Positions 23,559 to 34,926 of a stretch of 64,000 nucleotides of DNA are shown piece after piece (position 1 is the first letter of the stretch; each line of letters begins with the position of its first letter). The notes under the pieces are model-generated. The model did not search any database. It was not told where the DNA came from and was given only the letters and a program-made list of their open reading frames with translations. The translations under genes and the position numbers were made by a program. Source of the stretch: a virus; IMG/VR virus record IMGVR_UViG_3300031718_000001, positions 62,001-126,000 of that record, one strand, 5' to 3'.

Positions 23559-24230
23559 GTTACTGGCCGGTAACAAGGCAGCCACAACAACAAGTGCACA
23601 ATAGAAGGTCAAAAACAATAATAGAAAAAGATTTTTTGGACTTTATGTATTTATGAGTTGTTGTAGTTGTGCTCTGGCGGGCCTATACGCGGCTGACCTG
23701 GGACAGTGCACTTGCACTCCGGCCCAGTGCACATGGAGTGCACATGGAGTGCAGAACTGAGGTGCCTAAAATCCTTTCTTACCAGCCAGCAGTGCAATAG
23801 TGCACATCCGGAGGCCGTTTTACGCGCACGCGATCAGTTGGCCCAAAGCTGTAATCAGATGAGCACGCTCTGTTCCTCCCTACGCGGGCGGTCCACAGCC
23901 GTGGATAACCAGTGGACAGCCGACGGCCCGCCCGGCCAGAATTTTTCTCGCGGATAACCCGGGTTTTATGTGCACTTGTGCACTATCGGCTGGTCAGATG
24001 CTATTATTCGAGCGACAGTTCTGCACTTGGATCTGCACTGTGCGCACTGGCGGGTCCAACATGTGCACTGGGCTCGGTGCCGGTATCCTTGGGCGGTCCC
24101 CGCCAATCCTTCCGTTCAGGTTGGTGCGCCTGCATGTTCGTTTGCAAGTTCGTTGGGGTTGCGGTTATTGCTACCGTTTGGTACGAATTGCCATCTATAG
24201 GGGGGCCGGCTCGGCTTGGAGGGTTCTTCG
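23559..24230. other. candidate replication origin / control region with GTGCAC repeats
   Basis: 672 bp without a gene. An AT-rich tract (about 23580-23675) is unusual in this genome. Eight exact GTGCAC palindromes lie at 23594, 23706, 23727, 23738, 23800, 23980, 23988 and 24063, with several TGCACT half-sites. Three DnaA-box-like words (GTCCACA 23891, GTGGATAA 23901, GTGGACA 23912) cluster within 28 bp; GTGGATAA is the complement of TTATCCAC. This looks like an iteron-type origin or a multi-operator control region. Confidence 0.55.
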
Positions 24231-24617
24231 ATGCTGTATGACCCCGCTCGCGCTGCCCGCGTCTGCTACGCGGCGATCAGGCAGCTCCGGGAGGAGCAGG
24301 GGTTCGACAAGGGGCCGGTCTGGCGCCTGCTGGTCGTGGCCGAGCAGGACTGGCTGTGCGAGGCCTGCAACCTCGCCGCCAACGGCTGGATGTCGTACGA
24401 GATCTTCGCCGAGTGGCGCCGCGTCCGCGAGCTGGATGGCTGGCGCCTCGGGCAGGAGATCGACCACGCCAAGAAGACGCATCCTGAGCTGGTGGACTGG
24501 AAGACGCTGCCGGAGGACGTGCAGCAGCGGTACTTCCTGCTCCAGATGATGACCTCTGCGCTGCACCTGGTCGTTCCGCCCGCATTGACCGGTTCGTCAC
24601 CTGTCGCCGCAGTGTGA
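24231..24617 (+). CDS. RyR-domain protein
   Basis: 128 residues, ATG behind ggagggttcttcg. The middle (WRRVRELDGWRLGQEIDHAKKTHPELVDW, given as start and end residues) followed by TLPEDVQQR matches the ryanodine-receptor (RyR) domain pattern of W-x-GW-x-G-x-DxxxKTHPxLVPW. A CEAC pair lies near residue 40. RyR domains occur in phage and defence-linked proteins and may bind nucleotide-derived ligands. It stands alone downstream of the GTGCAC region, which may control it. Confidence 0.65.
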   Translation: MLYDPARAARVCYAAIRQLREEQGFDKGPVWRLLVVAEQDWLCEACNLAANGWMSYEIFAEWRRVRELDGWRLGQEIDHAKKTHPELVDWKTLPEDVQQRYFLLQMMTSALHLVVPPALTGSSPVAAV

Positions 24618-24704: not shown

Positions 24705-24725
24705 ATTGGTGACAATTGTCCCAAT
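24705..24725. promoter_or_regulatory. operator-like dyad before bldC-like gene
   Basis: ATTGG, then GACAATTGTC (itself palindromic), then CCAAT: an imperfect 21-bp palindrome 24 bp before the ATG. Confidence 0.5.
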
Positions 24726-24748
24726 GTCCCCAGGAAAGGTGCAGTTTA

Positions 24749-24970
24749 ATGCAAGTACCTCTTCCGACACTGCCCGCCGAGACTGAGCCGCTGCTCACTC
24801 CGGCGGAGGTGGCGGCGCTCTTCCGGGTTGACCCCAAGACCGTGACAAGGTGGGCGCGATCAGGGAAGGTCCCCTCGATCCGCACGGCTGGCGGCCACCG
24901 GAGATACCGGGAGAGCACGATCAGGGCGATGCTCAACGCGCCCGAGCCAGAGTCCGGCCAGGAAAGCTGA
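24749..24970 (+). CDS. bldC-like: BldC-like small MerR/excisionase-type regulator
   Basis: 73 residues, ATG behind aggaaaggtgcagttta. PLLTPAEVAALFRVDP, KTVTRWARSGKVPSIRT and GGHRRYRESTIRAML follow Streptomyces BldC almost word for word: a winged helix-turn-helix of the MerR/Xis type that binds DNA as a head-to-tail oligomer. In the host BldC delays development by controlling many promoters. A phage copy may reprogramme host genes or serve as a phage repressor or excisionase. An operator-like dyad lies upstream, suggesting autoregulation. Confidence in the fold is high; in role, low. Confidence 0.85.
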   Translation: MQVPLPTLPAETEPLLTPAEVAALFRVDPKTVTRWARSGKVPSIRTAGGHRRYRESTIRAMLNAPEPESGQES

Positions 24971-25280: not shown

Positions 25281-25300
25281 GTTTCCCACAACTGCACATA

Positions 25301-25375
25301 GGGGCGTAGCTCAGTTTGGTAGAGCCCCGGTCTCCAAAACCGGGTGTCCGCGCGGGTTCGAGCCCTGCCGCCCCT
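25301..25375 (+). tRNA. tRNA-Trp(CCA)
   Basis: Cloverleaf with anticodon loop CTCCAAA and T loop TTCGAGC; acceptor GGGGCGT has one mismatch at its base. First gene of the array. Confidence 0.9.
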
Positions 25376-25717
25376 GCGACCGCCGGCCGAGCGAGAGCGA
25401 CGCGGGCGCATGTCAACTGGATCTTGTCAACTCAACAGCGGAACACAGCGGCGGGCGCCATCCCGCCGCGCGACGTGGCGGAAGATACCCGAGCTACACC
25501 GGGGGTTAAGGGAGTACCCGGCGCCACGTCTGTTTGACTCGGGGCGGCCTGGACGGAAGCTGATAAGGCATGCCGGGCAACCGGACGCCAGGCCGCCCTG
25601 TCAAGACTTTTTGCGCAGGATGCAAGAGGTTTGCATCCTGCGCAAAATGACCGGGGCCGTCGATTATGTCCCGGGTATGCAGGCAGTAAAAGAAGCGGAT
25701 ACAACAACTGCCTGCTC
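25376..25717. other. 342-bp spacer with three strong dyads, no gene
   Basis: Holds GACGTGGCG/CGCCACGTC (25472-25530), GGGCGGCCTGG/CCAGGCCGCCC (25542-25598), a perfect 17-bp hairpin (25609-25625 with 25631-25647) and CAGGCAGT/ACTGCCTG (25680-25714). No coding frame is convincing. The first dyad encloses a TTAA-containing loop reminiscent of a degenerate tRNA-Leu. Confidence 0.6.
25609..25647. terminator. perfect 17-bp hairpin, possibly bidirectional terminator
   Basis: Arms 25609-25625 and 25631-25647, 5-nt loop, T run on one side and A run on the other. Confidence 0.7.
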
Positions 25718-25791
25718 GGGGCCTTAGCTCAGTCGGTACGAGCGCTTGCGTGGCACGCAAGAGGTCACGGGTTCGAGGCCCGTAGGCTCCA
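25718..25791 (+). tRNA. tRNA-Ala(GGC)
   Basis: Anticodon loop GTGGCAC; acceptor carries the G3-T70 pair diagnostic for alanine. Confidence 0.9.
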
Positions 25792-25931
25792 CAGGGCATC
25801 CGTCCGGCCGGGCGGTGCCTGAATATGGGCAGGATGGGCCGCGTTCAGGCGGCCTGGCGGAAACGGCAGCAGGGCGTGCTGGACAACGCACTGCTCCGGA
25901 CATCCTGGGGCCGGAGGGTACCTGGCACAGC

Positions 25932-26004
25932 GGGGCTATGGCGCAGTTGGTAGCGCGCTTCCTTCGCAACGAAGAGGCCGCCGGTTCGATCCCGGCTAGC
26001 TCCA
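25932..26004 (+). tRNA. tRNA-Ala(CGC)
   Basis: Anticodon loop TTCGCAA; G3-T70 pair present; one mismatch at the foot of the anticodon stem. Confidence 0.88.
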
Positions 26005-26134
26005 CGTGGTGAGCCGTGGCACGGCATCCGACGGGGTTGATCGCCCCGCGCAGGCTGATCACCTGCGTCAGCAAGGTAACCGGCATATCCGGGCGCGAAT
26101 CCCAGCGCCCCGGCCGGAGCAACTCACCACTCCA

Positions 26135-26208
26135 CGGGACGTAGCGCAGTCTGGCAGCGCGCCTGCCTTGGGCGCAGGAGGTCGCCGGTTCGGATCCGGC
26201 CGTCCCGA
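26135..26208 (+). tRNA. tRNA-Pro(TGG)
   Basis: Anticodon loop CTTGGGC; T loop TTCGGAT has G at position 58. Confidence 0.9.
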
Positions 26209-26268
26209 CAGCGCCCCGGGGTACGGTGATTACTTGTGCGTCCGCCAGGCGATCACGGAGTGTTCGGG

Positions 26269-27564
26269 ATGTCATCAGTTCTCAGGTCAGTCACGGGCTG
26301 GAAGGATCTCTGCCACCCGGGTAAGCGCCGTCTACAGCCCCAGGACCGGTCAATGGCCGGGCCGCTGGTGGCCGCGCCCTTCGAGCTTTCGGAGTTCCCT
26401 CCGGTCCCTGAATCGAGCCAGCTTCCCCCGCTCAACCCGGACCTGATCACCGGCTCCCTGGGCAGCATGACTGCCGGCCCTCAGACGTGCGCCGGAGACT
26501 TCTACGGCTACCTGTTCGCCGCCCAGCCGGGCCTGCGGGGGATGTTCCCGCCGCAGATGTCCGTGCAGAACGAGCGGCTGTTCGGCGCGCTCGTACGGAT
26601 TGTGAGCCTGCTAGATAAGCCGTACCTGCTGGCGGGCTACCTCGCCCAGCTCGGCGCCGACCACCGGAAATACGGCGTCTCCCCCGAGCACTACATGCCG
26701 GTGGGCGACGCGCTCATCCGGGCGCTGCGCCGCCACTGCAAGACATGGGACGAGTCCACCGAGCGCGCCTGGATGACGGCCTACTCCATGGCCGCGGACA
26801 TGATGATCACCGGGGCCGAGGCCCAGACCGGGCCGGCCGCCTGGCGCTGCCAGGTCGTCAAGCACGAGCGCCGCACCCACGACCTGGCCGTCGTCACGGT
26901 ACGGCCTGATCAGCCGCTGCCCTACGAGGCCGGCCAGTACGTGACGGTGCAGACCCCGCGCTGGCCCCAGGTCTGGCGGCACTTCTCGGTCGCCAACGCC
27001 CCGGCCGCTGACGGGCTGATCGACCTGCACATCCGGGCCGTGCCGGCCGGGTGGGTGAGCAATACCCTGGTCTCGCTGACCTCGCCGGGCGACGAGATCC
27101 TGCTCGGCCCGGCTGCCGGGGAGATGACGGCAGGCCACGCGAACGGCAGCGACCTGGTGTGCGTCGCGGGCGGCACGGGCCTGGCCCCGCTCCGGGCGAT
27201 TGTCGAAGATGTGCTGCGCAGCGATGAGGAGAACGTCGCGGCGGGCACGGGCGTGCGGCGCAACATCAGCCTGTTCCACGGCGCTCGCGATCCCCTCGGC
27301 TTCTACGACATGCCTCACCTTCGCGAGCTGTCCTCGTTCTACCCGTGGTTCCAGGTGGTGCCGGTTATCTCCGGCGATCACGATTTCGGCGGTCTCCGGG
27401 GCAATGTGGCTGAAATAGCCGTAAAGCATGGCGATTGGAGCGAACGGCATGCATTCATCTCGGGGCCGGAGGGAATGGTCCGGGATGCCGTTCTCGGCTT
27501 CCAGGCGGCTGAGGTGCCTGATGCACAGGTGCATTACGACGGCATCGAGGTGGGAGATGCATGA
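26269..27564 (+). CDS. globin-coupled FAD/NAD(P)H reductase (flavohaemoglobin type)
   Basis: 431 residues from ATG 26269 (cggag 8 nt upstream); GTG 26236 and ATG 26353 are alternatives. A globin domain (about 55-185) has a DFYGYLF motif with the distal B10 Tyr (Y79) and DHRKYGV with the proximal haem His (H132). An FAD-binding reductase domain follows, with RHFS (237-240), then an NAD(P)H domain with GGTGLAP (301-307). This is the architecture of flavohaemoglobins, which use NAD(P)H to turn NO and O2 into nitrate. The ATGA overlap with the NOS gene means both are made together: it may feed electrons to NOS, detoxify surplus NO, or both. It begins 61 bp after a tRNA-Pro, without a visible terminator. 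Confidence 0.88.
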   Translation: MSSVLRSVTGWKDLCHPGKRRLQPQDRSMAGPLVAAPFELSEFPPVPESSQLPPLNPDLITGSLGSMTAGPQTCAGDFYGYLFAAQPGLRGMFPPQMSVQNERLFGALVRIVSLLDKPYLLAGYLAQLGADHRKYGVSPEHYMPVGDALIRALRRHCKTWDESTERAWMTAYSMAADMMITGAEAQTGPAAWRCQVVKHERRTHDLAVVTVRPDQPLPYEAGQYVTVQTPRWPQVWRHFSVANAPAADGLIDLHIRAVPAGWVSNTLVSLTSPGDEILLGPAAGEMTAGHANGSDLVCVAGGTGLAPLRAIVEDVLRSDEENVAAGTGVRRNISLFHGARDPLGFYDMPHLRELSSFYPWFQVVPVISGDHDFGGLRGNVAEIAVKHGDWSERHAFISGPEGMVRDAVLGFQAAEVPDAQVHYDGIEVGDA

Positions 27565-28691
27565 CTCTGCGCGTGTTTCCCAGGCGCGTCCCGCAGGCTG
27601 GCGCGGCCGTGCTGGCCGAGGCCGAGATGTTCCTGGCTGAGTTCTACGCCGCCTGTCCTGCACCCGGTGAGGCATCCGCGCGGATGGCCCAGGTCCGCGA
27701 GTCCGTGCTCGCCACCGGCACCTACGAGCACACGCCGGAGGAGCTGGAGTACGCCGCCAGGATCGCCTGGCGGAACGCGGCCAGGTGCTCGGGGCGGGAC
27801 AAGTGGCGGACCCTGCGAGTGCGCGACTGCCGGACGGTATCGGACCCCAAGCAGGTCGCCGACGAGACCGTCGCCCACCTGCGCACTGCCACCAGCCACG
27901 GCCGGGTGCGATCCTGGATCACGGTGTTCGCCCCGGACAGGCCCGGTAATCCCGGCCCGCGGATCATCAACGGGCAGGCCGTCCGGTACGCCGGCTACCG
28001 CCAGCCGGACGGCGTGACCGGGGATCCGGTCAACGTGGCCCTGACCGACCTGGCGGTCAGTCTCGGCTGGCGGGGCCGCGGCGGGCGGTTCGACGTGCTG
28101 CCCCTCATAACTATGGACGGCAGCGGGGAGCTGTGCTGGTCGGACGTGCCGCCCGATGCGGTGCTGGAGGTCCCGATCAGCCACCCGGACTTCCGGTGGT
28201 TCAGCAAGCTCGGGCTGCGCTGGTACGCCATTCCGGTGATCACCGACATGTACCTGGAAGCCGGCGGCATACGCTATCCGTGCGCGCCGTTCAACGGCTG
28301 GTACCAGGCGAGCACAGAGGTCGGAGTCCGGAACCTCGGCGACGAGACCCGCTACAACGTCCTCCCCGATGTGGCCAGGGGCATGAAGCTGGACATGTCA
28401 TCGCCGAGCACGTTCTGGATGGACCGGGCCGCGGTCGAGCTGGCCGTGGCCGTCCATCACAGCTACCGCCGGGCCGGCGTAGTGGTCACCGACCACCAGG
28501 CCGAGACACGCAGGTTCGCCCACTGGGCTGCCCGGGAGGGCGAGGCCGGGCGCGAGGTGCCGGCGGACTGGGCGTGGATCGTCCCGCCAGTCAGCGGCAG
28601 CACGACCCCCGTGTTCCACCAGGAGTATCAGGCCGCGGTGCTGAAGCCCGGCTACTTCAGGCACGAGGATGGCCCGCTGATCAGCGGGTGA
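27561..28691 (+). CDS. nos: nitric oxide synthase oxygenase
   Basis: 376 residues, the usual size of bacterial NOS. ATG overlaps the upstream TGA (ATGA). IAWRNAARCSGR (residues 68-79) holds the haem-ligand Cys76 and the stacking Trp70; PFNGWYQASTEVGVRN (243-258) holds the substrate-binding Glu253; DWAWIVPP (336-343) gives the pterin-stacking tryptophans; HQEY and KPGYF lie near the C-terminus. It would oxidise L-arginine to citrulline and NO using O2 and electrons from a reductase, here perhaps the adjacent gene. Compared with the remembered GWYMGTE pattern, one extra residue lies between GWY and TE. The stop codon is directly followed by tRNA-Pro. Confidence 0.93.
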   Translation: MTLRVFPRRVPQAGAAVLAEAEMFLAEFYAACPAPGEASARMAQVRESVLATGTYEHTPEELEYAARIAWRNAARCSGRDKWRTLRVRDCRTVSDPKQVADETVAHLRTATSHGRVRSWITVFAPDRPGNPGPRIINGQAVRYAGYRQPDGVTGDPVNVALTDLAVSLGWRGRGGRFDVLPLITMDGSGELCWSDVPPDAVLEVPISHPDFRWFSKLGLRWYAIPVITDMYLEAGGIRYPCAPFNGWYQASTEVGVRNLGDETRYNVLPDVARGMKLDMSSPSTFWMDRAAVELAVAVHHSYRRAGVVVTDHQAETRRFAHWAAREGEAGREVPADWAWIVPPVSGSTTPVFHQEYQAAVLKPGYFRHEDGPLISG

Positions 28692-28765
28692 CGGGACATG
28701 GCGCAGTCCGGCAGCGCGCGTGCTCGGGGAGCACGAGGTCGTCAGTTCAAATCTGGCTGTCCCGA
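28692..28765 (+). tRNA. tRNA-Pro(GGG), C33
   Basis: Anticodon loop TCGGGGA: position 33 is C. Begins on the base after the NOS stop codon. Confidence 0.82.
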
Positions 28766-29110
28766 CGGAGCCGGATGTACACCGGCTTGCTGGAGCCCGG
28801 CCTTGCTAACCGGGTGCGGTGCTGAGTGTTAGCAGCACGGTGATCCGGCTGGGCGGCAGCGCCGTCCGATGGTGATCCAGGGACGATGCGAGGTCGTCGG
28901 CACCACTGACTGAGGTTCGGTACACGGCTGCGGGTAGAGGGCAGAAGGCGCTGCCACCCCTCGCAAGGGGGAGACTCCCGTTCGATTCGAGGATCGCCGC
29001 AGACGCAGTGGCCGCGTTTCCCTAGCAAGCGGAGGCGAAAACCGCAGGACGGCAGAAGCTTGCAGGTGGCCAGGGTGGTATAGCCGCGCGGCACTACCCT
29101 GGCGCCGATT
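28766..29110. other. 345-bp spacer, tRNA-like element and hairpins
   Basis: AGCCGGAT (28769-28776) pairs with ATCCGGCT (28843-28850) enclosing 82 nt with TTGCTAA in a loop, like a degenerate tRNA-Ser(GCT) lacking a T loop. A second segment (about 28930-29003) holds short hairpins; GCCAGGGT/ACCCTGGC lies at 29069-29103. No protein gene is convincing. Confidence 0.45.
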
Positions 29111-29184
29111 CGGGCTGTAGCGCAGCTTGGCAGCGCGCCGCGTTCGGGACGCGGAGGCCGCCGGTTCAACTCCGGCCAGCCCGA
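29111..29184 (+). tRNA. tRNA-Pro(CGG)
   Basis: Anticodon loop TTCGGGA; perfect CGGGCTG/CAGCCCG acceptor. Confidence 0.92.
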
Positions 29185-29223
29185 CCTAAGATCTGAGACA
29201 GACTGCTGGCGGAGGGAAGCGCG

Positions 29224-29430
29224 ATGTGGCTGTTCGAGGCCCTGACGGTCCTGGTGGCGGGCGGGGCAGTGAGCCTGTACCTGCTCCTGCTGTTCTGGGG
29301 CGTTGTCATTTTCGGCATGCGGGCGCGCGAGATTCCTGCCCTGGCCTGGAGCATGGTCGCCGGCTGGGAGCAGCAGAACCGGCTCAAGGCCATCCTGGCA
29401 GCCAGGAAAGGTACGAACGCGGTCAGGTAG
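29224..29430 (+). CDS. small single-pass membrane protein
   Basis: 68 residues, ATG behind ggagggaagcgcg. Residues 8-32 are a hydrophobic helix, then a basic amphipathic tail. Its last 10 nt run into tRNA-Phe, so the stop codon lies in the tRNA acceptor arm. Embedded in the tRNA array; role unknown. Confidence 0.6.
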   Translation: MWLFEALTVLVAGGAVSLYLLLLFWGVVIFGMRAREIPALAWSMVAGWEQQNRLKAILAARKGTNAVR

Positions 29431-29494
29431 CTCAGTCGGTACGAGCGCCTGCCTGAAAAGCAGGAGGTCGCCGGTTCGATGCCGGCCCTGACCA
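29421..29494 (+). tRNA. tRNA-Phe(GAA)
   Basis: Anticodon loop CTGAAAA; acceptor GGTCAGG/CCTGACC. Overlaps the end of the preceding gene. Confidence 0.93.
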
Positions 29495-29829
29495 CGAGAT
29501 CGGCGATCGACGGTCTTTGGCCCCCGCGGTAAGCGCATCGGGGGGTAGAGCGGCGGCAGGTTTGCGGCCGGGTGATGAGCCTGGCCTGACCCTTCGATGG
29601 GAGCGCTGCGCGATGGGGCTTCATGAGGCCCCGTAAGTCAGGTAGCGAAGCGGTGTGACTCCGTACTGGGCGCGGCCGAGGCGTGCACGCTGAATCCGTG
29701 AGGGTCCGACTCCCGGCGAATGGCCAGCTACCTGGCGTAGGTCCCTGGGGAAGGTAACGACGCCCCTGTGAGCCGGGCCGCAAGCCCGGCAACAGCAGGC
29801 TCCGGCTCGACCAAGCCAGGGACCGCCCT
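29495..29829. other. 335-bp spacer without gene; dyads
   Basis: CAGGTAGC (29639-29646) pairs with GCTACCTG (29727-29734). GCCGGGC/GCCCGGC (29772-29790) is a compact hairpin. A T-arm-like GGGTCCGACTCCC near 29702 is not part of a foldable cloverleaf. Confidence 0.45.
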
Positions 29830-29900
29830 GCGGGCGTGGCTCAATGGCAGAGCACCAGCCTTCCAAGCTGGCCACGCGGGTCCGATTCCCGTCGCCCGCT
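29830..29900 (+). tRNA. tRNA-Gly(TCC)
   Basis: Anticodon loop CTTCCAA; T loop TCCGATT has C at position 55. Confidence 0.9.
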
Positions 29901-29914
29901 CGTATAGTCGGAGC

Positions 29915-30109
29915 ATGATGCTCCGCCAGGTAAGGCTCCGGTCAGGCAGCACCGAGCTGACCTGCTGGATGGAATCCCGGGTCAGGATGGGAGATGTCAT
30001 CACGCTGAAGAACAGCGATTCCCCGGGGGTTCTCTGGTCCGTCGAATGGGCCGGCAGCCAGCTTCGCGAGCCCCTGTCGATCAACAGGGGCTGGAGCAAT
30101 AACATCTAG
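29915..30109 (+). CDS. small beta-rich protein, leaderless
   Basis: 64 residues from ATG 29915 (a second ATG follows). TATAGT ends 6 nt upstream; no ribosome site. GDVITLKNSDSPGVLWSVEWAG suggests a small barrel. Function unknown. Confidence 0.55.
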   Translation: MMLRQVRLRSGSTELTCWMESRVRMGDVITLKNSDSPGVLWSVEWAGSQLREPLSINRGWSNNI

Positions 30110-30114
30110 CACGC

Positions 30115-30141
30115 GCGCCGCTAGCTCAGAGCAGTGGTATC
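30115..30141 (+). repeat. 5'-half remnant of tRNA-Lys
   Basis: GCGCCGCTAGCTCAGAGCAG resembles the 5' half of the intact tRNA-Lys at 30548 (GCGCCGCTAACTCAACTGGT). It precedes the HNH gene and marks the left side of its insertion. Confidence 0.6.
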
Positions 30142-30150
30142 CTTAAACAC

Positions 30151-30585
30151 GTGCCAAGAGACCGTGAGCTGTACAACGCTTACATGGCGTCGTACATGAA
30201 GAGCTGGTACGACCGCAGGCATGCCGAGGCTGTGGCGGCTCTGGGCGGGCACTGTGCACATCCTGGTTGTTATGAGGTCGATGACCTTCAGTTTGACCAC
30301 ATCGACCCGCAAACAAAGACCATGACGATCGCTAGGATGTGGACTGCCTCAGAGGAGCGGTTCCAGACAGAACTGAAGAAGTGCCAACTCCTTTGCTGGC
30401 CGCATCACCTGGAGAAGACGCTCGCAGAGAAGAACCAGCGCTCTGCGCGCGGAACGCACGGTACGGTGACCGCTTACCGCTACTGCGGACCTCCAAAGTG
30501 TGAGGCGTGCAGGGCCGCCAAGCGTTCCGCGCCCAGCTACAAGGCACGCGCCGCTAACTCAACTGGTAGAGAGCCGCACTCTTAA
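30151..30585 (+). CDS. HNH endonuclease at tRNA-Lys
   Basis: 144 residues, GTG with TATCCT ending 7 nt upstream and no ribosome site. HCAHPGC (34-40), LQFDHIDPQTK (46-56) and CQLLCWPHHLEKT (78-90) make a complete HNH/zinc core. C-terminal CGPPKCEACRAAK adds a second zinc knuckle. It probably homes to a tRNA gene: a tRNA-Lys half lies upstream, and the 3' end of the ORF overlaps the intact tRNA-Lys by 38 nt. Confidence 0.85.
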   Translation: MPRDRELYNAYMASYMKSWYDRRHAEAVAALGGHCAHPGCYEVDDLQFDHIDPQTKTMTIARMWTASEERFQTELKKCQLLCWPHHLEKTLAEKNQRSARGTHGTVTAYRYCGPPKCEACRAAKRSAPSYKARAANSTGREPHS

Positions 30586-30620
30586 TGCGGAAGTTCGGGG
30601 TTCAAGTCCCTGGCGGCGCA
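30548..30620 (+). tRNA. tRNA-Lys(CTT)
   Basis: Anticodon loop CTCTTAA; perfect GCGCCGC/GCGGCGC acceptor. Overlaps the HNH ORF end. Confidence 0.92.
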
Positions 30621-30635
30621 CGCAAGTCGTTGTCA

Positions 30636-30657
30636 TTAGCAGGAAAAGCTGTATTAT
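30636..30657 (+). promoter_or_regulatory. copy 3 of conserved promoter-like element
   Basis: TTAGCAGGAAAAGCTG then TATTAT, inside the tRNA array; probably restarts transcription of the second half. Confidence 0.5.
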
Positions 30658-30775
30658 GGAGTCATCCCGGTTCCGCAGGGACAGAACGAAAGCTAGCGCC
30701 TCGCTCCCGGCAAGAGCGTTATAGGGCCTCCGCTTGCGGAGGTGGCGTTTCCCCTGCGGTGCCAGGATCTCCGGC

Positions 30776-30857
30776 GGGCGAGTGGCGGAATGCAGACGCG
30801 CCGGCCTCAAAAGCCGGTGTCCGCGAGGACGTGAGGGCGCGAATCCCTCCTTGCCCA
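30776..30857 (+). tRNA. tRNA-Leu(CAA)
   Basis: Long variable arm; anticodon loop CTCAAAA; odd T loop CGCGAAT. Confidence 0.88.
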
Positions 30858-31022
30858 CAAGCGCCGACGGCGAGCGCCGAGCAGACCAGGACGGGCAGCC
30901 CCCGTCCCAGGTGCCGGCGCGGGGCGCGGTATCAAGTACCGGATCGTCCGTCCGGGTGGCGCCCGGAGGAGGAGGGGACTACGCAGACCCGACCTGTCCT
31001 GAGTGGATCGGGCCGCGTGCCA

Positions 31023-31094
31023 TGGGGTATTGGGTAATTGGCAGCCCGCAAGGTTCTGGACCTTGTCGTCCTGGTCCGAGTCCAGGTACCCCAG
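31023..31094 (+). tRNA. tRNA-Gln(CTG)
   Basis: Anticodon loop TTCTGGA; T loop TCCGAGT with C55. Confidence 0.9.
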
Positions 31095-31168
31095 CATGGC
31101 CGCGCTCTGCTTGCGGCCGAGGTCCCAGCCTCGGTTCTGGGCACAGGCGGAGACGGCCGCAGTACCAG

Positions 31169-31242
31169 GCCCCGATAGCTCAGTCGGCCAGAGCGTCCCA
31201 CTCGTAATGGGAAGGTCGCCGGTTCGATGCCGGCCCGGGGCT
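31169..31242 (+). tRNA. tRNA-Thr(CGT)
   Basis: Anticodon loop CTCGTAA; T loop TTCGATG. Confidence 0.9.
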
Positions 31243-31375
31243 CGTGTGGACAGCTCGTATCGAGGAGTGCCCGGTCTGCCATAAGGGCGTGGCCGTACGG
31301 CCGCTGACCGGCCGGCTCTGGCGGCACGGCCAGGAGACATGCTGCCCTGGCAGCGATAAGACAGCAGGAGAACTG

Positions 31376-31460
31376 GTCCGAATGGCGGAAATGGCAGACG
31401 CGCCAGCTTGAGGTGCTGGTGCCCGCGCAGGGCGTCCGGGTCCGAATCCCGGTTCGGACA
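31376..31460 (+). tRNA. tRNA-Leu(GAG)
   Basis: Long variable arm; anticodon loop TTGAGGT; T loop TCCGAAT with C55. Confidence 0.9.
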
Positions 31461-31557
31461 CGGTGAGGAGATCCAGGACTGGCGCTCCTGGCCGGTCCCC
31501 GGGGCCGGTAGCTCAAGATGCCGGCCGCCCGGGTGGCCAGAGCGCCTCACATGACTT

Positions 31558-31630
31558 GCCGGTCTAGCTCAGTTGGCAGAGCGCCCGTCTTGTAAACGGG
31601 AGGTGATCGGTTCGAGGCCGTTGACCGGCT
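31558..31630 (+). tRNA. tRNA-Thr(TGT)
   Basis: Anticodon loop CTTGTAA; acceptor GCCGGTC/GACCGGC. Confidence 0.92.
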
Positions 31631-31635
31631 CTCGT

Positions 31636-31708
31636 TCCGGGGTGGGTTGACGGTATCCCGGCCGGGTTTTGGCCCCGGCGCACGCTGGTCCGACTCCAGC
31701 TCCCGGAG
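31636..31708 (+). tRNA. tRNA-Gln(TTG)
   Basis: Anticodon loop TTTTGGC; T loop TCCGACT with C55. Confidence 0.88.
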
Positions 31709-31719
31709 CACAGTGACTT

Positions 31720-31793
31720 GCCTCCATAGCTCAGTTGGAACGAGCGCGCCCCCGGTACGGGCGAGGTCACCGGTTCGGCTCCGGTTGGAGGCT
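31720..31793 (+). tRNA. tRNA-Thr(GGT), C33
   Basis: Five perfect anticodon-stem pairs frame loop CCGGTAC, so position 33 is C; T loop TTCGGCT has G58. Confidence 0.85.
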
Positions 31794-31806
31794 CGCAGTA
31801 AAGCAC

Positions 31807-31879
31807 GCGGACGTAGCTCAGTTGGTAGAGCGCTACCTTGCCAAGGTAGGGGTCGCGGGTCCGAAGCCCGTCGTCCGCT
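31807..31879 (+). tRNA. tRNA-Gly(GCC)
   Basis: Anticodon loop TTGCCAA; T loop TCCGAAG with C55. Confidence 0.9.
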
Positions 31880-31881
31880 CT

Positions 31882-31957
31882 GAGATCACGACCCGAGATA
31901 ACTGGTGCCGGGACGGAACTCCATGCCAATACCTAATCCGTTTAGCGGCGTGATCTC
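31882..31957 (+). other. 76-nt tRNA-like element
   Basis: GAGATCACG (31882-31890) pairs perfectly with CGTGATCTC (31949-31957), the exact span of a tRNA. A D-arm-like CCCG/CGGG and an arm ACGGA/TCCGT lie inside but no normal anticodon loop or T loop. Confidence 0.35.
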
Positions 31958-31961
31958 TTGA

Positions 31962-32047
31962 GTCCGGGTGGTGGAATAGGCAGACACGCACGGTTCAGGC
32001 CCGTGTGTCCCTCGCGGGACATGAGAGTTCAACTCTCTCCTCGGACA
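31962..32047 (+). tRNA. tRNA-Leu(CAG)
   Basis: Long variable arm; anticodon loop TTCAGGC. Confidence 0.9.
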
Positions 32048-32051
32048 CGTT

Positions 32052-32138
32052 GGAGCGGTCGCCTAGTCAGGCCTAGGGCGCGTAACTGCTAATTACGTAG
32101 GGGTAACACCCTCGCGGGTCCGAATCCCGCCCGCTCCG
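32052..32138 (+). tRNA. tRNA-Ser(GCT)
   Basis: Long variable arm; anticodon loop CTGCTAA; T loop with C55. Confidence 0.92.
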
Positions 32139-32142
32139 CTCT

Positions 32143-32229
32143 GGGAGGTTCGCCTAGTGGCCTATGGCGCCCGGCCGGAAACCGGGTTGGGAGTAACGCC
32201 CCTCGCGGGTCCGAATCCCGCACCTTCCG
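32143..32229 (+). tRNA. tRNA-Ser(GGA), C33
   Basis: Anticodon arm CCCGG, loop CCGGAAA, CCGGG: C33. T loop with C55. Confidence 0.87.
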
Positions 32230-32230
32230 C

Positions 32231-32425
32231 TCAGATCTCGATCCGGATCATCTGCTCCGGCAGCGGCCGGTGCACCACGGCGTCGATCTCGGCCGCGAAC
32301 TCATCCGGCAGTCCATCCACCCGGTACAGCGAGCGTTTCATGAACATGGCCACGTAGTTGGCTGCTTCCTCGGGCCGGGCCAGGCCGCGCATCCTGACCG
32401 TCACCGTCACCTCGGGATCGTCCAT
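32231..32425 (-). CDS. small hypothetical protein between tRNAs
   Basis: 64 residues on the minus strand. ATG at 32425 has TACGTT ending 6 nt upstream and no ribosome site, so it is probably leaderless. Strand-helix pattern (EVTVTVRMRG, then helices), acidic C-terminus. Unknown family; opposite to the tRNAs on both sides. Confidence 0.6.
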   Translation of the reverse strand: MDDPEVTVTVRMRGLARPEEAANYVAMFMKRSLYRVDGLPDEFAAEIDAVVHRPLPEQMIRIEI

Positions 32426-32453
32426 GCGGCCAACGTACCGAGAGTCTCCGCCT

Positions 32454-32540
32454 GGTGAGGTCGCCTAGTGGCCTAGGGCAGCCGCCCCGAAAGCGGCCAG
32501 GGTGAAATACCCCTCGTGGGTCCGAATCCCACCCTCACCG
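32454..32540 (+). tRNA. tRNA-Ser(CGA), C33
   Basis: Anticodon arm GCCGC, loop CCCGAAA, GCGGC: C33. C55 as well. Confidence 0.87.
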
Positions 32541-32549
32541 CTCTGGCAA

Positions 32550-32632
32550 GGCAGGATCGCCTAGCGGCCTAGGGCGCTCGTCCTGAAAACGAGTAGGGGC
32601 AACCCTCGTGGGTCCGAATCCCACTCCTGCCG
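32550..32632 (+). tRNA. tRNA-Ser(TGA), C33
   Basis: Anticodon arm CTCGT, loop CCTGAAA, ACGAG: C33. C55 as well. Confidence 0.87.
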
Positions 32633-32634
32633 CC

Positions 32635-32829
32635 TTAACGGCGCAGCGTGATCGGGTTCCACCCGCCGGTTGCCAGGTGCAGCGCCAGGAAGAACAGGCC
32701 GACGGCGACGACGCCGAGGGCGGAAATGCCCGATACGCCAGCAAAAGCAATGAACGCGGCTATTGCGAACGCGATGGCAGCAAAGATAGCAAGCATGCCA
32801 GGGAGACTGCCCTGGCGATAGTGGTTCAA
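32635..32829 (-). CDS. small two-pass membrane protein
   Basis: 64 residues on the minus strand, TTG start (an internal ATG at residue 12 is an alternative). Two hydrophobic segments (about 12-30 and 35-54), ending LALHLATGGWNPITLRR, a pattern seen in tiny actinobacterial and phage membrane proteins. It lies between tRNA-Ser and tRNA-Ile on the opposite strand. Confidence 0.55.
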   Translation of the reverse strand: MNHYRQGSLPGMLAIFAAIAFAIAAFIAFAGVSGISALGVVAVGLFFLALHLATGGWNPITLRR

Positions 32830-32833
32830 ACGG

Positions 32834-32908
32834 GGGCCTGTAGCTCAGCTCGGTCAGAGCGCTTGCCTGATAAGCAAGAGGTCGCTGGTTCAATTCCAAC
32901 CAGGCCCA
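32834..32908 (+). tRNA. tRNA-Ile(GAT)
   Basis: Anticodon loop CTGATAA; normal T33 and T loop TTCAATT. Confidence 0.93.
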
Positions 32909-32909
32909 C

Positions 32910-32983
32910 GGCGGTGTAGCTCAGTTTGGTAGAGCGCCGGACTCATAATCCGATGGTCGCCGGTCCAATTCCGGCCACCGCTA
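32910..32983 (+). tRNA. tRNA-Met(CAT), elongator (or Ile2)
   Basis: Anticodon loop CTCATAA; paired acceptor foot, so not initiator. T loop TCCAATT with C55. A CAT anticodon could also be lysidine-modified for Ile. Confidence 0.85.
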
Positions 32984-33047
32984 CTCAGTTGCCGCTCAGT
33001 GAGGAGTTAACCGATGGTCAACCTGAAACAGGCCCCGCTTAATGCGC

Positions 33048-33119
33048 GGGCCGCTAGCTCAATGGCAGAGCAGCCGACTTTTAATCGGCAGCGTCGGAGT
33101 TCGACCCTCCGGCGGCCCA
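33048..33119 (+). tRNA. tRNA-Lys(TTT)
   Basis: Anticodon loop CTTTTAA; acceptor GGGCCGC/GCGGCCC. Confidence 0.93.
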
Positions 33120-33124
33120 CCCCC

Positions 33125-33197
33125 GCTCCGTTAGCTCAGTGGACAGAGCGACTGCCTTCTAAGCAGCAGGTCACGGGTCCGAATCCCCTACGGAGCA
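33125..33197 (+). tRNA. tRNA-Arg(TCT)
   Basis: Anticodon loop CTTCTAA; T loop with C55. Confidence 0.92.
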
Positions 33198-33288
33198 CAT
33201 GAACGGCCGCGCTTAAAGACGGCCCCGGGCATCTCGCGGCGCGCAGCGAGATCTCTCTCCGGCGGTCGGTCAAGCCGCGCGGATCAGC

Positions 33289-33363
33289 GGTCCTGTCGTC
33301 TAGTCAGGCTCAGGACGCCTGCCTCTCAAGCAGGTAACACCGGTTCAAAGCCGGTCAGGACCA
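33289..33363 (+). tRNA. tRNA-Glu(CTC)
   Basis: Anticodon loop CTCTCAA, normal T33. Confidence 0.92.
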
Positions 33364-33506
33364 CTAACCGGCCGGGCACTACGGGCACGGCCGCCTAGAA
33401 CCCCTGGACGCTGGCGGACCAGCATGGGGCGCTCAGGCCGTGGTGAACAAAGTCCGTGGCAAACCCAGCCAGCGAGTCCTCTGCCCGCCTGGCCGGTTCT
33501 TTTCAG

Positions 33507-33579
33507 GCCCCCATCGACCAGTGGCCAAGGTCACCGGCCCTTCAAGCCGAGGACGCGGGTCCGAATCCCGCTGGGGGAG
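33507..33579 (+). tRNA. tRNA-Glu(TTC), C33
   Basis: Anticodon loop CCTTCAA: C33. T loop with C55; first acceptor pair unpaired (G1, A72). Confidence 0.82.
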
Positions 33580-33607
33580 CGAGGCCAGGTAGCTTATCCT
33601 GGCAGGA

Positions 33608-33683
33608 CGCGGGGTGGAGCAGCTCGGTTGTGCTCGCTGGACTCATAATCCAGAGGTCGCCAGTTCAAATCTGGCCCCCGCTA
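33608..33683 (+). tRNA. tRNA-fMet(CAT), initiator-like
   Basis: C1 does not pair with position 72 and the D arm (GGAGCAGCTCGG) is initiator-like. The anticodon stem lacks the three consecutive G-C pairs typical of initiators (CTGGA/TCCAG). Confidence 0.8.
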
Positions 33684-33687
33684 CCGA

Positions 33688-33760
33688 TCCGGCGTAGCTC
33701 AGTTGGCAGAGCGCCTCTCTGTTAAAGAGGATGCCACTGGTTCGAGACCAGTCGCCGGAG
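33688..33760 (+). tRNA. tRNA-Asn(GTT)
   Basis: Anticodon loop CTGTTAA, normal. Confidence 0.93.
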
Positions 33761-33770
33761 CGTTTCCCGA

Positions 33771-33845
33771 GGTGGCGTAACTCAGCCAGGCCAGAGTGCC
33801 AGCCCGTCAAGCTGGAAGCCGCGGGTCCGAATCCCGTCGTCACCG
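33771..33845 (+). tRNA. tRNA-Asp(GTC), C33
   Basis: Anticodon arm CCAGC, loop CCGTCAA, GCTGG: C33. C55 as well. Confidence 0.85.
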
Positions 33846-33850
33846 CGATC

Positions 33851-33911
33851 AGCGAGAGTCACCGGCAGAAAGACAAGCTGCGCTGCTGTCCGGCAGCGCA
33901 CTGCTCTCGCT
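33851..33911 (+). other. nested hairpin in tRNA spacer
   Basis: Outer AGCGAGAG/CTCTCGCT (33851-33858 with 33904-33911) encloses inner TGCGCTGC/GCAGCGCA (33879-33886 with 33893-33900), both perfect. Confidence 0.65.
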
Positions 33912-33993
33912 GGCATACGTGCGGGCCTGCCCGCGCCGACACCGCCTGGGGCAGGCCAGGATGGGAAGCGCCCGCCGGGGTGCAGCAGGCAGA

Positions 33994-34065
33994 GGCTGTT
34001 TAGCTCAGCGGGAGAGCGCTGCCCCGACAAGGCAGAGGTCCTGGGTTCAGCTCCCAGAGCAGCCA
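33994..34065 (+). tRNA. tRNA-Val(GAC), C33
   Basis: Anticodon arm CTGCC, loop CCGACAA, GGCAG: C33. T loop TTCAGCT has G58. Confidence 0.85.
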
Positions 34066-34066
34066 C

Positions 34067-34201
34067 TTACTTGTCGAGGCCGGCGCCCTGCCGCATCTTC
34101 CGGTGCTCGCTGTCCGCGAGATGACGGATCGCCCGGCCGCCTCCCAGGCGGTACCCGACAGCGAGGCCGATGACGATTCCGACAATCAACATAGCAATCA
34201 T
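34067..34201 (-). CDS. 44-residue membrane peptide
   Basis: ATG at 34201 with GACAAT ending 6 nt upstream on the minus strand. MIAMLIVGIVIGLAVGYRLGG starts with one membrane helix (given as its first and last residues: residues 1-21) followed by a basic tail. Small but well-formed; plausibly real. Confidence 0.5.
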   Translation of the reverse strand: MIAMLIVGIVIGLAVGYRLGGGRAIRHLADSEHRKMRQGAGLDK

Positions 34202-34241
34202 GCTTGTATTGTCTCAGAACGGACAGACAGGCAGCAATCAT

Positions 34242-34314
<73 letters not shown>

Positions 34315-34341
34315 CGAGCCCTGGCGAAAGGCCGGGGACAT

Positions 34342-34417
34342 GGTGGCTGTAGCTCAGTCAGGTTAGAGCGCTAGGTTGTGGTCCTAGATGTCGCGAGTTC
34401 AAATCTCGTCAGCCACC
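34342..34417 (+). tRNA. tRNA-His(GTG)
   Basis: Anticodon loop TTGTGGT; extra G at position -1 encoded at 34342, as histidine tRNAs require. Confidence 0.93.
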
Positions 34418-34421
34418 CCCA

Positions 34422-34495
34422 GGGCGATTAGCTCAGCATGGGAGAGCGCTCCGTTCACACCGGAGAGGTCACCGGTTCAAACCCGTTATCGCCCA
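34422..34495 (+). tRNA. tRNA-Val(CAC)
   Basis: Anticodon loop TTCACAC; acceptor GGGCGAT/ATCGCCC. Confidence 0.9.
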
Positions 34496-34498
34496 CCC

Positions 34499-34582
34499 TG
34501 GCGGAAGTGAGCGGCAGCACGCTCAGCGGTCTGTAAAACCGTGGCCTCCGGGCAGATCTGGGCCGGCACCAGATTCCGCCAC
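34499..34582 (+). tRNA. tRNA-Tyr(GTA), unusual T loop
   Basis: Long variable arm; anticodon loop CTGTAAA. The T arm TCTGG/CCAGA encloses GCCGGCA, which lacks all invariant T-loop bases except C56. Confidence 0.8.
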
Positions 34583-34585
34583 CAT

Positions 34586-34658
34586 GCGCTCGTAGCTCAG
34601 TGGACAGAGCGGCGGCCTCCGGAGCCGCAGGTCGGGGGTCCGATTCCCTTCGAGCGCG
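34586..34658 (+). tRNA. tRNA-Arg(CCG)
   Basis: Anticodon loop CTCCGGA; T loop TCCGATT with C55. Confidence 0.92.
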
Positions 34659-34660
34659 CT

Positions 34661-34713
34661 GGCCGGCAGGTGAGCAGGCTGACACCGCCTTCGGGCTCAG
34701 CCCCCTGCCGGCC
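34661..34713 (+). other. perfect 10-bp hairpin spacer
   Basis: GGCCGGCAGG (34661-34670) pairs with CCTGCCGGCC (34704-34713), between tRNA-Arg and tRNA-Cys. Confidence 0.65.
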
Positions 34714-34722
34714 TCCAGTCCT

Positions 34723-34797
34723 GGCGGGTTGGCCGAGTGGATCAGGCATGCGCCTGCAAAGCGCAGTACACGGGTCCGATTCCCGTACCCGCCTCCA
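34723..34797 (+). tRNA. tRNA-Cys(GCA)
   Basis: Anticodon loop CTGCAAA; T loop with C55. The 3' CCA appears to be encoded (34795-34797). Confidence 0.92.
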
Positions 34798-34798
34798 G

Positions 34799-34872
34799 GA
34801 CCCTGTAGCTCAGCCGGATAGAGCACCTGCCCCCTAAGCAGGGCGTCGCGCGTTCGAGTCGCGCCAGGGCCG
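34799..34872 (+). tRNA. tRNA-Arg(CCT), C33
   Basis: Anticodon arm CCTGC, loop CCCCTAA, GCAGG: C33. One acceptor mismatch (A2-C71). Last tRNA of the array. Confidence 0.85.
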
Positions 34873-34926
34873 CTATGTGTTCCCGCTGTTGAGACGCTCC
34901 TCGCCCCGGAAGGTATAGGAGGAGAC

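Follow-up and report, generated by a model that had tools for sequence, protein, structure and literature searches.

Synthesis of nitric oxide (NO) is known from animals, algae, bacteria and archaea. In the known structures of NO synthase (NOS), the substrate loop touches the guanidinium group of arginine, and the side of the haem cysteine faces the reductase, which docks there. Bacterial NOS requires an outside reductase (PMC12922734). A single chain of 1468 residues from the cyanobacterium Synechococcus PCC 7335, syNOS, unites a globin, an FAD/NAD(P) reductase and a NOS oxygenase and carries FMN/flavodoxin and C2 domains, too; its globin oxidises NO to nitrate, and globin and FNR resemble the flavohaemoglobin Hmp (PMC6104048, PMC12922734). 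For viruses, "components of nitric oxide synthase" were mentioned for oxycline viromes, after Cassman 2012 (PMC4164917). This is a virome annotation and not a phage genome.

The window analysed here comprises 64,000 nucleotides, i.e. bases 62001-126000 of the 165,085-base virus record IMGVR_UViG_3300031718_000001. In this window a gene for a flavohaemoglobin-like protein (FHb) is directly coupled to a gene for a NOS oxygenase (Table 1). The ATGA overlap of the two genes, as well as the tRNA-Pro genes on both flanks with the NOS stop codon touching one of them, had been pointed out in a first-pass annotation and were recovered in the sequence. The pair brings together the same three kinds of domain as syNOS, but in two separate overlapping genes instead of one chain and with neither the FMN/flavodoxin nor the C2 domain; Pfam gave no match for a flavodoxin-like FMN domain in FHb or NOS.

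Table 1. Features of the FHb-NOS cassette and its surroundings, in window positions
Feature	Position	Strand	Basis
Flavohaemoglobin-like protein (FHb), 431 aa from ATG	26269..27564	+	Pfam, structure model, tree
Nitric oxide synthase oxygenase (NOS), 376 aa	27561..28691	+	PF02898, PDB match, fold, tree
ATGA start/stop overlap coupling FHb and NOS	27561..27564	+	sequence
NOS codons 249-253 (Q-A-S-T-E): M-to-Q change and one-residue insertion before catalytic Glu253	28305..28319	+	alignment
38-tRNA array holding the cassette	25300..34873	+	ARAGORN
tRNA-Pro(TGG), upstream flank of the cassette	26135..26209	+	ARAGORN
tRNA-Pro(GGG), downstream flank, abuts the NOS stop codon	28692..28766	+	ARAGORN; sequence

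Profile searches, as proposed with the annotation, bore out both families. The NOS protein matches PF02898 in full length (profile positions 4-359 of 362, E 1.2e-135, 452.6 bits at a cut-off of 22.7). Searched against the PDB, it matched 81 distinct sequences (E 1e-103), and among the matches listed 60 of 60 are named NOS. The haem-Cys motif, the substrate Glu and the pterin Trp positions noticed before are present (C76, E253, W337 and W339), together with Q139, R142 and the Trp/Tyr of the substrate loop (W247, Y248). The predicted fold matches those of eNOS and bsNOS (TM ~0.8), with a pLDDT of 72 and blocks of 59-67 around an insertion discussed below. Like the NOS oxygenases of B. subtilis, S. 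aureus and actinobacteria (PF02898), the window copy is oxygenase-only and has the catalytic residues and the Ile gate. It differs from them in being encoded by a phage, in its coupling to an own globin-reductase and in one additional residue before the catalytic Glu.

FHb consists of a disordered N-terminus (~50 aa) followed by a globin, an FAD and an NAD(P) domain (Pfam Globin 3e-14, FAD_binding_6 2e-9, NAD_binding_1 1e-10). The ATG at 26269, preceded by GGAG, is the likelier start, with GTG 26260 and GTG 26236 as alternatives. The distal Tyr and proximal His described in the annotation are found as Tyr B10 (Y90, numbering of the 442-aa open reading frame) and His F8 (H143), next to Gln E7 (Q111); the flavin motif R-x-F-S and the sequence GGTGLAP are kept, too. 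The top structural match of the model (pLDDT 81.8) is E. coli flavohaemoglobin 1gvh (E 2.6e-22). Of the two models, that of NOS is weak at the insertion. FHb shares the domain order and the three globin residues with the NO dioxygenase Hmp (1gvh, 1cqx), but identity in the structure match is only ~18-22%, and in the NCBIfam model for NO-inducible flavohaemoprotein (Hmp equivalog, NF009805) it reaches 93.1 bits, far under the cut-off of 432. Furthermore, it has the additional disordered N-terminus and is a member of a separate actinobacterial subfamily, which is found together with NOS.

The cassette is carried by a phage of ~165 kb, whose putative hosts are soil-type actinobacteria. Besides the cassette, the window holds genes for a portal, a major head, a tail sheath and a tail-chaperone protein. 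Its major capsid protein is homologous to that of Ceeclamvirinae-type phages (58-59% identity to Myrna, Phabba and HyRo) and equally close to that of Gordonia phage Stormageddon; the comparison with isolates on which this likeness rests covered the capsid. Genome size is similar for the mycobacteriophages, too. However, none of these four isolates has NOS or this FHb.

At 28689-28692 the NOS stop codon is followed by the 5' end of the tRNA without a gap, so a cut by RNase P would leave an mRNA terminating exactly at the stop codon. Neither a sigma-70-like promoter nor an intrinsic terminator was found around the cassette (25900-29200), which makes co-transcription with the tRNA array conceivable. 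The order of the tRNAs (Trp-Ala-Ala-Pro...Phe-Gly-Lys-Leu-Gln-Thr...) is near-identical in the window phage and in the otherwise unrelated phage G001 (loci L102 and L103), as if the array itself had been exchanged between phages. Directly upstream of the array, 24216-24614 encodes an RyR-domain-like protein, which scores slightly below the cut-off of Pfam, and 24716-24967 a helix-turn-helix protein resembling MerR/excisionase.

The annotation suggested looking for the pair in other large actinophages. Scans of viral contigs for short conserved peptides, by which divergent copies will be missed, revealed the same coupled order, FHb then NOS, in three actinophage contigs that stem from other metagenomes: L002 (124.8-kb record), L087 (35.8 kb) and L161 (103.6 kb). 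A search of the viral contigs with the single FHb protein gave no match, but copies were found with an alignment. The junction is an ATGA overlap in the window and in L087; in L002 the NOS start abuts the FHb stop, and in L161 NOS starts within the end of FHb. The four contigs fall into three types of phage that have almost nothing else in common. The phages of L002 and L087 are related (portal 77%, major head protein 68%), and L161 belongs to the third type, which encodes a portal, a tape measure, an endolysin and an integrase. Beyond the cassette, the window phage (G000), G001/G002 and G562 have little more than a few weak or short matches in common; viral genes are present in G000, G001 and G562. 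The position of the cassette varies as well: it lies within the tRNA array in the window, just past the array in L087, far from it in L002 and next to the endolysin gene in L161, the record of which has no tRNAs. A fifth, unrelated phage (L086, 10001-11727 of IMGVR_UViG_3300027857_000012) belongs to another lineage with 43% GC and carries portal, head protease, tape measure and DNA polymerase. Here NOS precedes a globin gene; its product has an N-terminal part before the globin domain, and Pfam detects no reductase domain in it. The occurrence of the pair in several otherwise unrelated viruses suggests that phages keep and trade this NO module.

When placed in trees together with relatives from bacteria, the actinophage NOS group into a single clade of four (100/100); the FHb tree likewise unites the four phage copies (100/100). 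The closest non-phage NOS are from two uncultivated actinobacteria, also with a neighbouring FHb gene (grouping 94/91).

The annotation had stated that no characterised phage is known with the pair, and this holds: none of 50,697 isolate-phage records contains it. NOS matches in these records were confined to OR845001.1 and OR850403.1, both labelled Staphylococcus phage. We read them as host sequence, since one is a 1.5-kb fragment and a plasmid record of S. aureus yields the 40.2% match as well. No FHb homologue in this collection covers 80% of the query, the matches being unrelated reductases. Neither a published phage genome with NOS nor a published FHb-NOS pair in actinobacteria was found in the literature searched, outside of which most subscription papers lie.

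Among 396 sampled Actinomycetota, NOS is present in 8. Both families stand side by side in Embleya, Yinghuangia, Streptomyces SID3343, uncultivated actinobacteria and G225, as they do in the phages. In contrast to the phage pairs, order and strand vary in bacteria, with at least three arrangements of linked pairs: FHb then NOS (L004, L076, L082), NOS then FHb (L154) and convergent (L055/L146, L056/L143, G522). None of these neighbouring pairs has the phage insertion. In Streptosporangiales (151 genomes), a close FHb (E <= 1e-80) accompanies NOS in 58 of 62 genomes and occurs in 26 of the 89 genomes lacking NOS (Fisher p=2e-16, uncorrected for shared ancestry). The varied gene arrangements are more independent evidence of the association than this count. 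Most Streptosporangiaceae have FHb and NOS at non-adjacent positions. In one uncultivated actinobacterium (G004) the convergent pair (L143, 3913-10266) lies between ftsY-like and ffh-like genes, an odd place in the core chromosome. Its neighbours, which from their protein starts we take to be smc, ftsY, ffh, rimM and trmD, indicate a chromosomal location. Another actinobacterium (G300) encodes a shorter, very divergent NOS-like protein (L155, 7532-8494) with 37% identity, a long branch and several conserved residues missing.

The four actinophage NOS deviate from the other NOS in the substrate loop and elsewhere. Between Trp-Tyr and Thr-Glu of the substrate loop they all have one inserted residue, a Ser, which is absent from the 23 other NOS compared; the loop reads QASTE or MASTE in place of the usual M-x-TE, and the Trp-Tyr-x-x-Thr-Glu spacing usual for PF02898, an informal yardstick, is not kept. 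N295A and H313Q are found in all four as well, at positions constant in the other 23, and M249Q in three. Directly after the haem Cys, residues 77, 80 and 81 are S/T/V, D/Y and K/N instead of I, L and Y, again in four of four. Given the contacts of the loop with the guanidinium group and of the Cys side with the reductase, the handling of the substrate as well as the docking of the donor may have changed. A loss of the haem or arginine pocket, raised in the annotation as an objection, is not seen in the haem Cys and the substrate residues, which are kept; the spacing of the substrate loop has changed, however, and the arginine pocket is therefore not to be assumed unchanged.

What the two enzymes do, in which direction electrons flow and what the phage gains are inferences. 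The syNOS precedent and the presence of the same kinds of domain make NO synthesis plus NO dioxygenation the likely joint function. Functionally, the phage pair is probably a split, two-gene version of syNOS in which NO is made and then oxidised, and which, of actinobacterial origin, has long resided in actinophages and moved as a unit between unrelated phage types; we consider this explanation, taken as a whole, the probable one. The NOS oxygenase would convert host arginine to NO and citrulline using host pterin, and FHb would bind O2 and turn surplus NO into nitrate. In addition, NOS may receive electrons from the flavin reductase of FHb. The likely benefit would be that NO is released in a controlled and self-limiting manner during infection and hits haem or Fe-S proteins of the host. 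The annotation had gone further and proposed a self-sufficient NO module. A phage-borne module is well supported by intact enzymes, coupling in four records and the association in bacteria; self-sufficiency is not, as there is no FMN domain and no gene for GTP cyclohydrolase I was found in four phage records. A pterin supply encoded by the phages was rejected on the absence of this one gene. Against the syNOS-like reading speak the unique insertion, the fixed changes, the distance of FHb from Hmp (93 vs 432 bits) and the non-adjacent genes of most Streptosporangiaceae.

It is very improbable that the cassette is host DNA, picked up accidentally or joined to a phage contig by misassembly, and without function for the phage, although the record is metagenomic, both families are bacterial and isolate phages lack the pair. 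This reading is already largely refuted: the coupled pair recurs in four records differing in dataset, phage type and position, being placed inside the tRNA array in the window and directly after the array in L087, and both genes stay open at 55-67% protein identity. Pairwise dN/dS (NG86) is ~0.41 for NOS and 0.47-0.57 for FHb, rough values as synonymous sites are far diverged; being below 1, they indicate selection to keep both proteins. GC3 of the cassette (0.85-0.91) is like that of the phage structural genes (0.85-0.88). A contaminant or chimera, as considered in the annotation, was rejected on the basis of the independent contigs, the phage neighbours and the matching GC3.

Less easily dismissed, yet still unlikely, is that FHb chiefly acts as dedicated redox partner of NOS, relaying electrons from NAD(P)H to the haem of NOS by way of FAD, and perhaps of the globin haem as well, and making host flavodoxin or ferredoxin dispensable. 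The need of bacterial NOS for an outside reductase would be met in this way, the pair is coupled and co-inherited, and the changes at residues 77, 80 and 81 may have altered the docking surface, since the haem-Cys side is where the reductase binds. Sorangium NOS, with an FNR-type reductase within the same chain, fits as well. However, neither protein has an FMN or Fe-S carrier, the intact Tyr B10/Gln E7/His F8 site would be superfluous in a plain reductase, and the fifth phage couples NOS with a globin gene in which no Pfam reductase domain is detected. Electron supply as a second or even main role of FHb is given low odds. The chemistry of the phage NOS may be altered: with the unique insertion next to Glu253, N295A and H313Q, the enzyme may fail to turn over arginine normally. 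A strong form, in which it no longer frees NO from arginine and has another substrate or product (e.g. nitrating or hydroxylating) while FHb donates electrons or removes NO, would fit these changes, M249Q and the long stem branch of the phage NOS clade (0.44 changes per column), but is quite improbable with the haem Cys, the catalytic Glu, Trp247/Tyr248, Gln139/Arg142 and the pterin Trp all retained.

For the split, two-gene version of syNOS, NO or nitrate could inhibit haem/Fe-S proteins, trigger actinobacterial NO-sensing regulators or limit oxidative damage; roles in signalling, poisoning or competition are speculation. More tentatively, actinophages might have evolved an own two-component NO enzyme, i.e. 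a NOS whose loop and donor face are remodelled and for which the coupled FHb provides both power and buffering, used to reprogram NO-sensing hosts during infection. If true, this NOS system would be the first one known from a virus. As far as searched, an NO module has not previously been described in any phage. For bacteria, the actinobacterial FHb type emerges as a NOS partner with some probability, a point relevant to the still open question which reductase bacterial NOS uses. For the phages, a pair held together across unrelated types suggests that NO is a lever in the conflict between phage and host.
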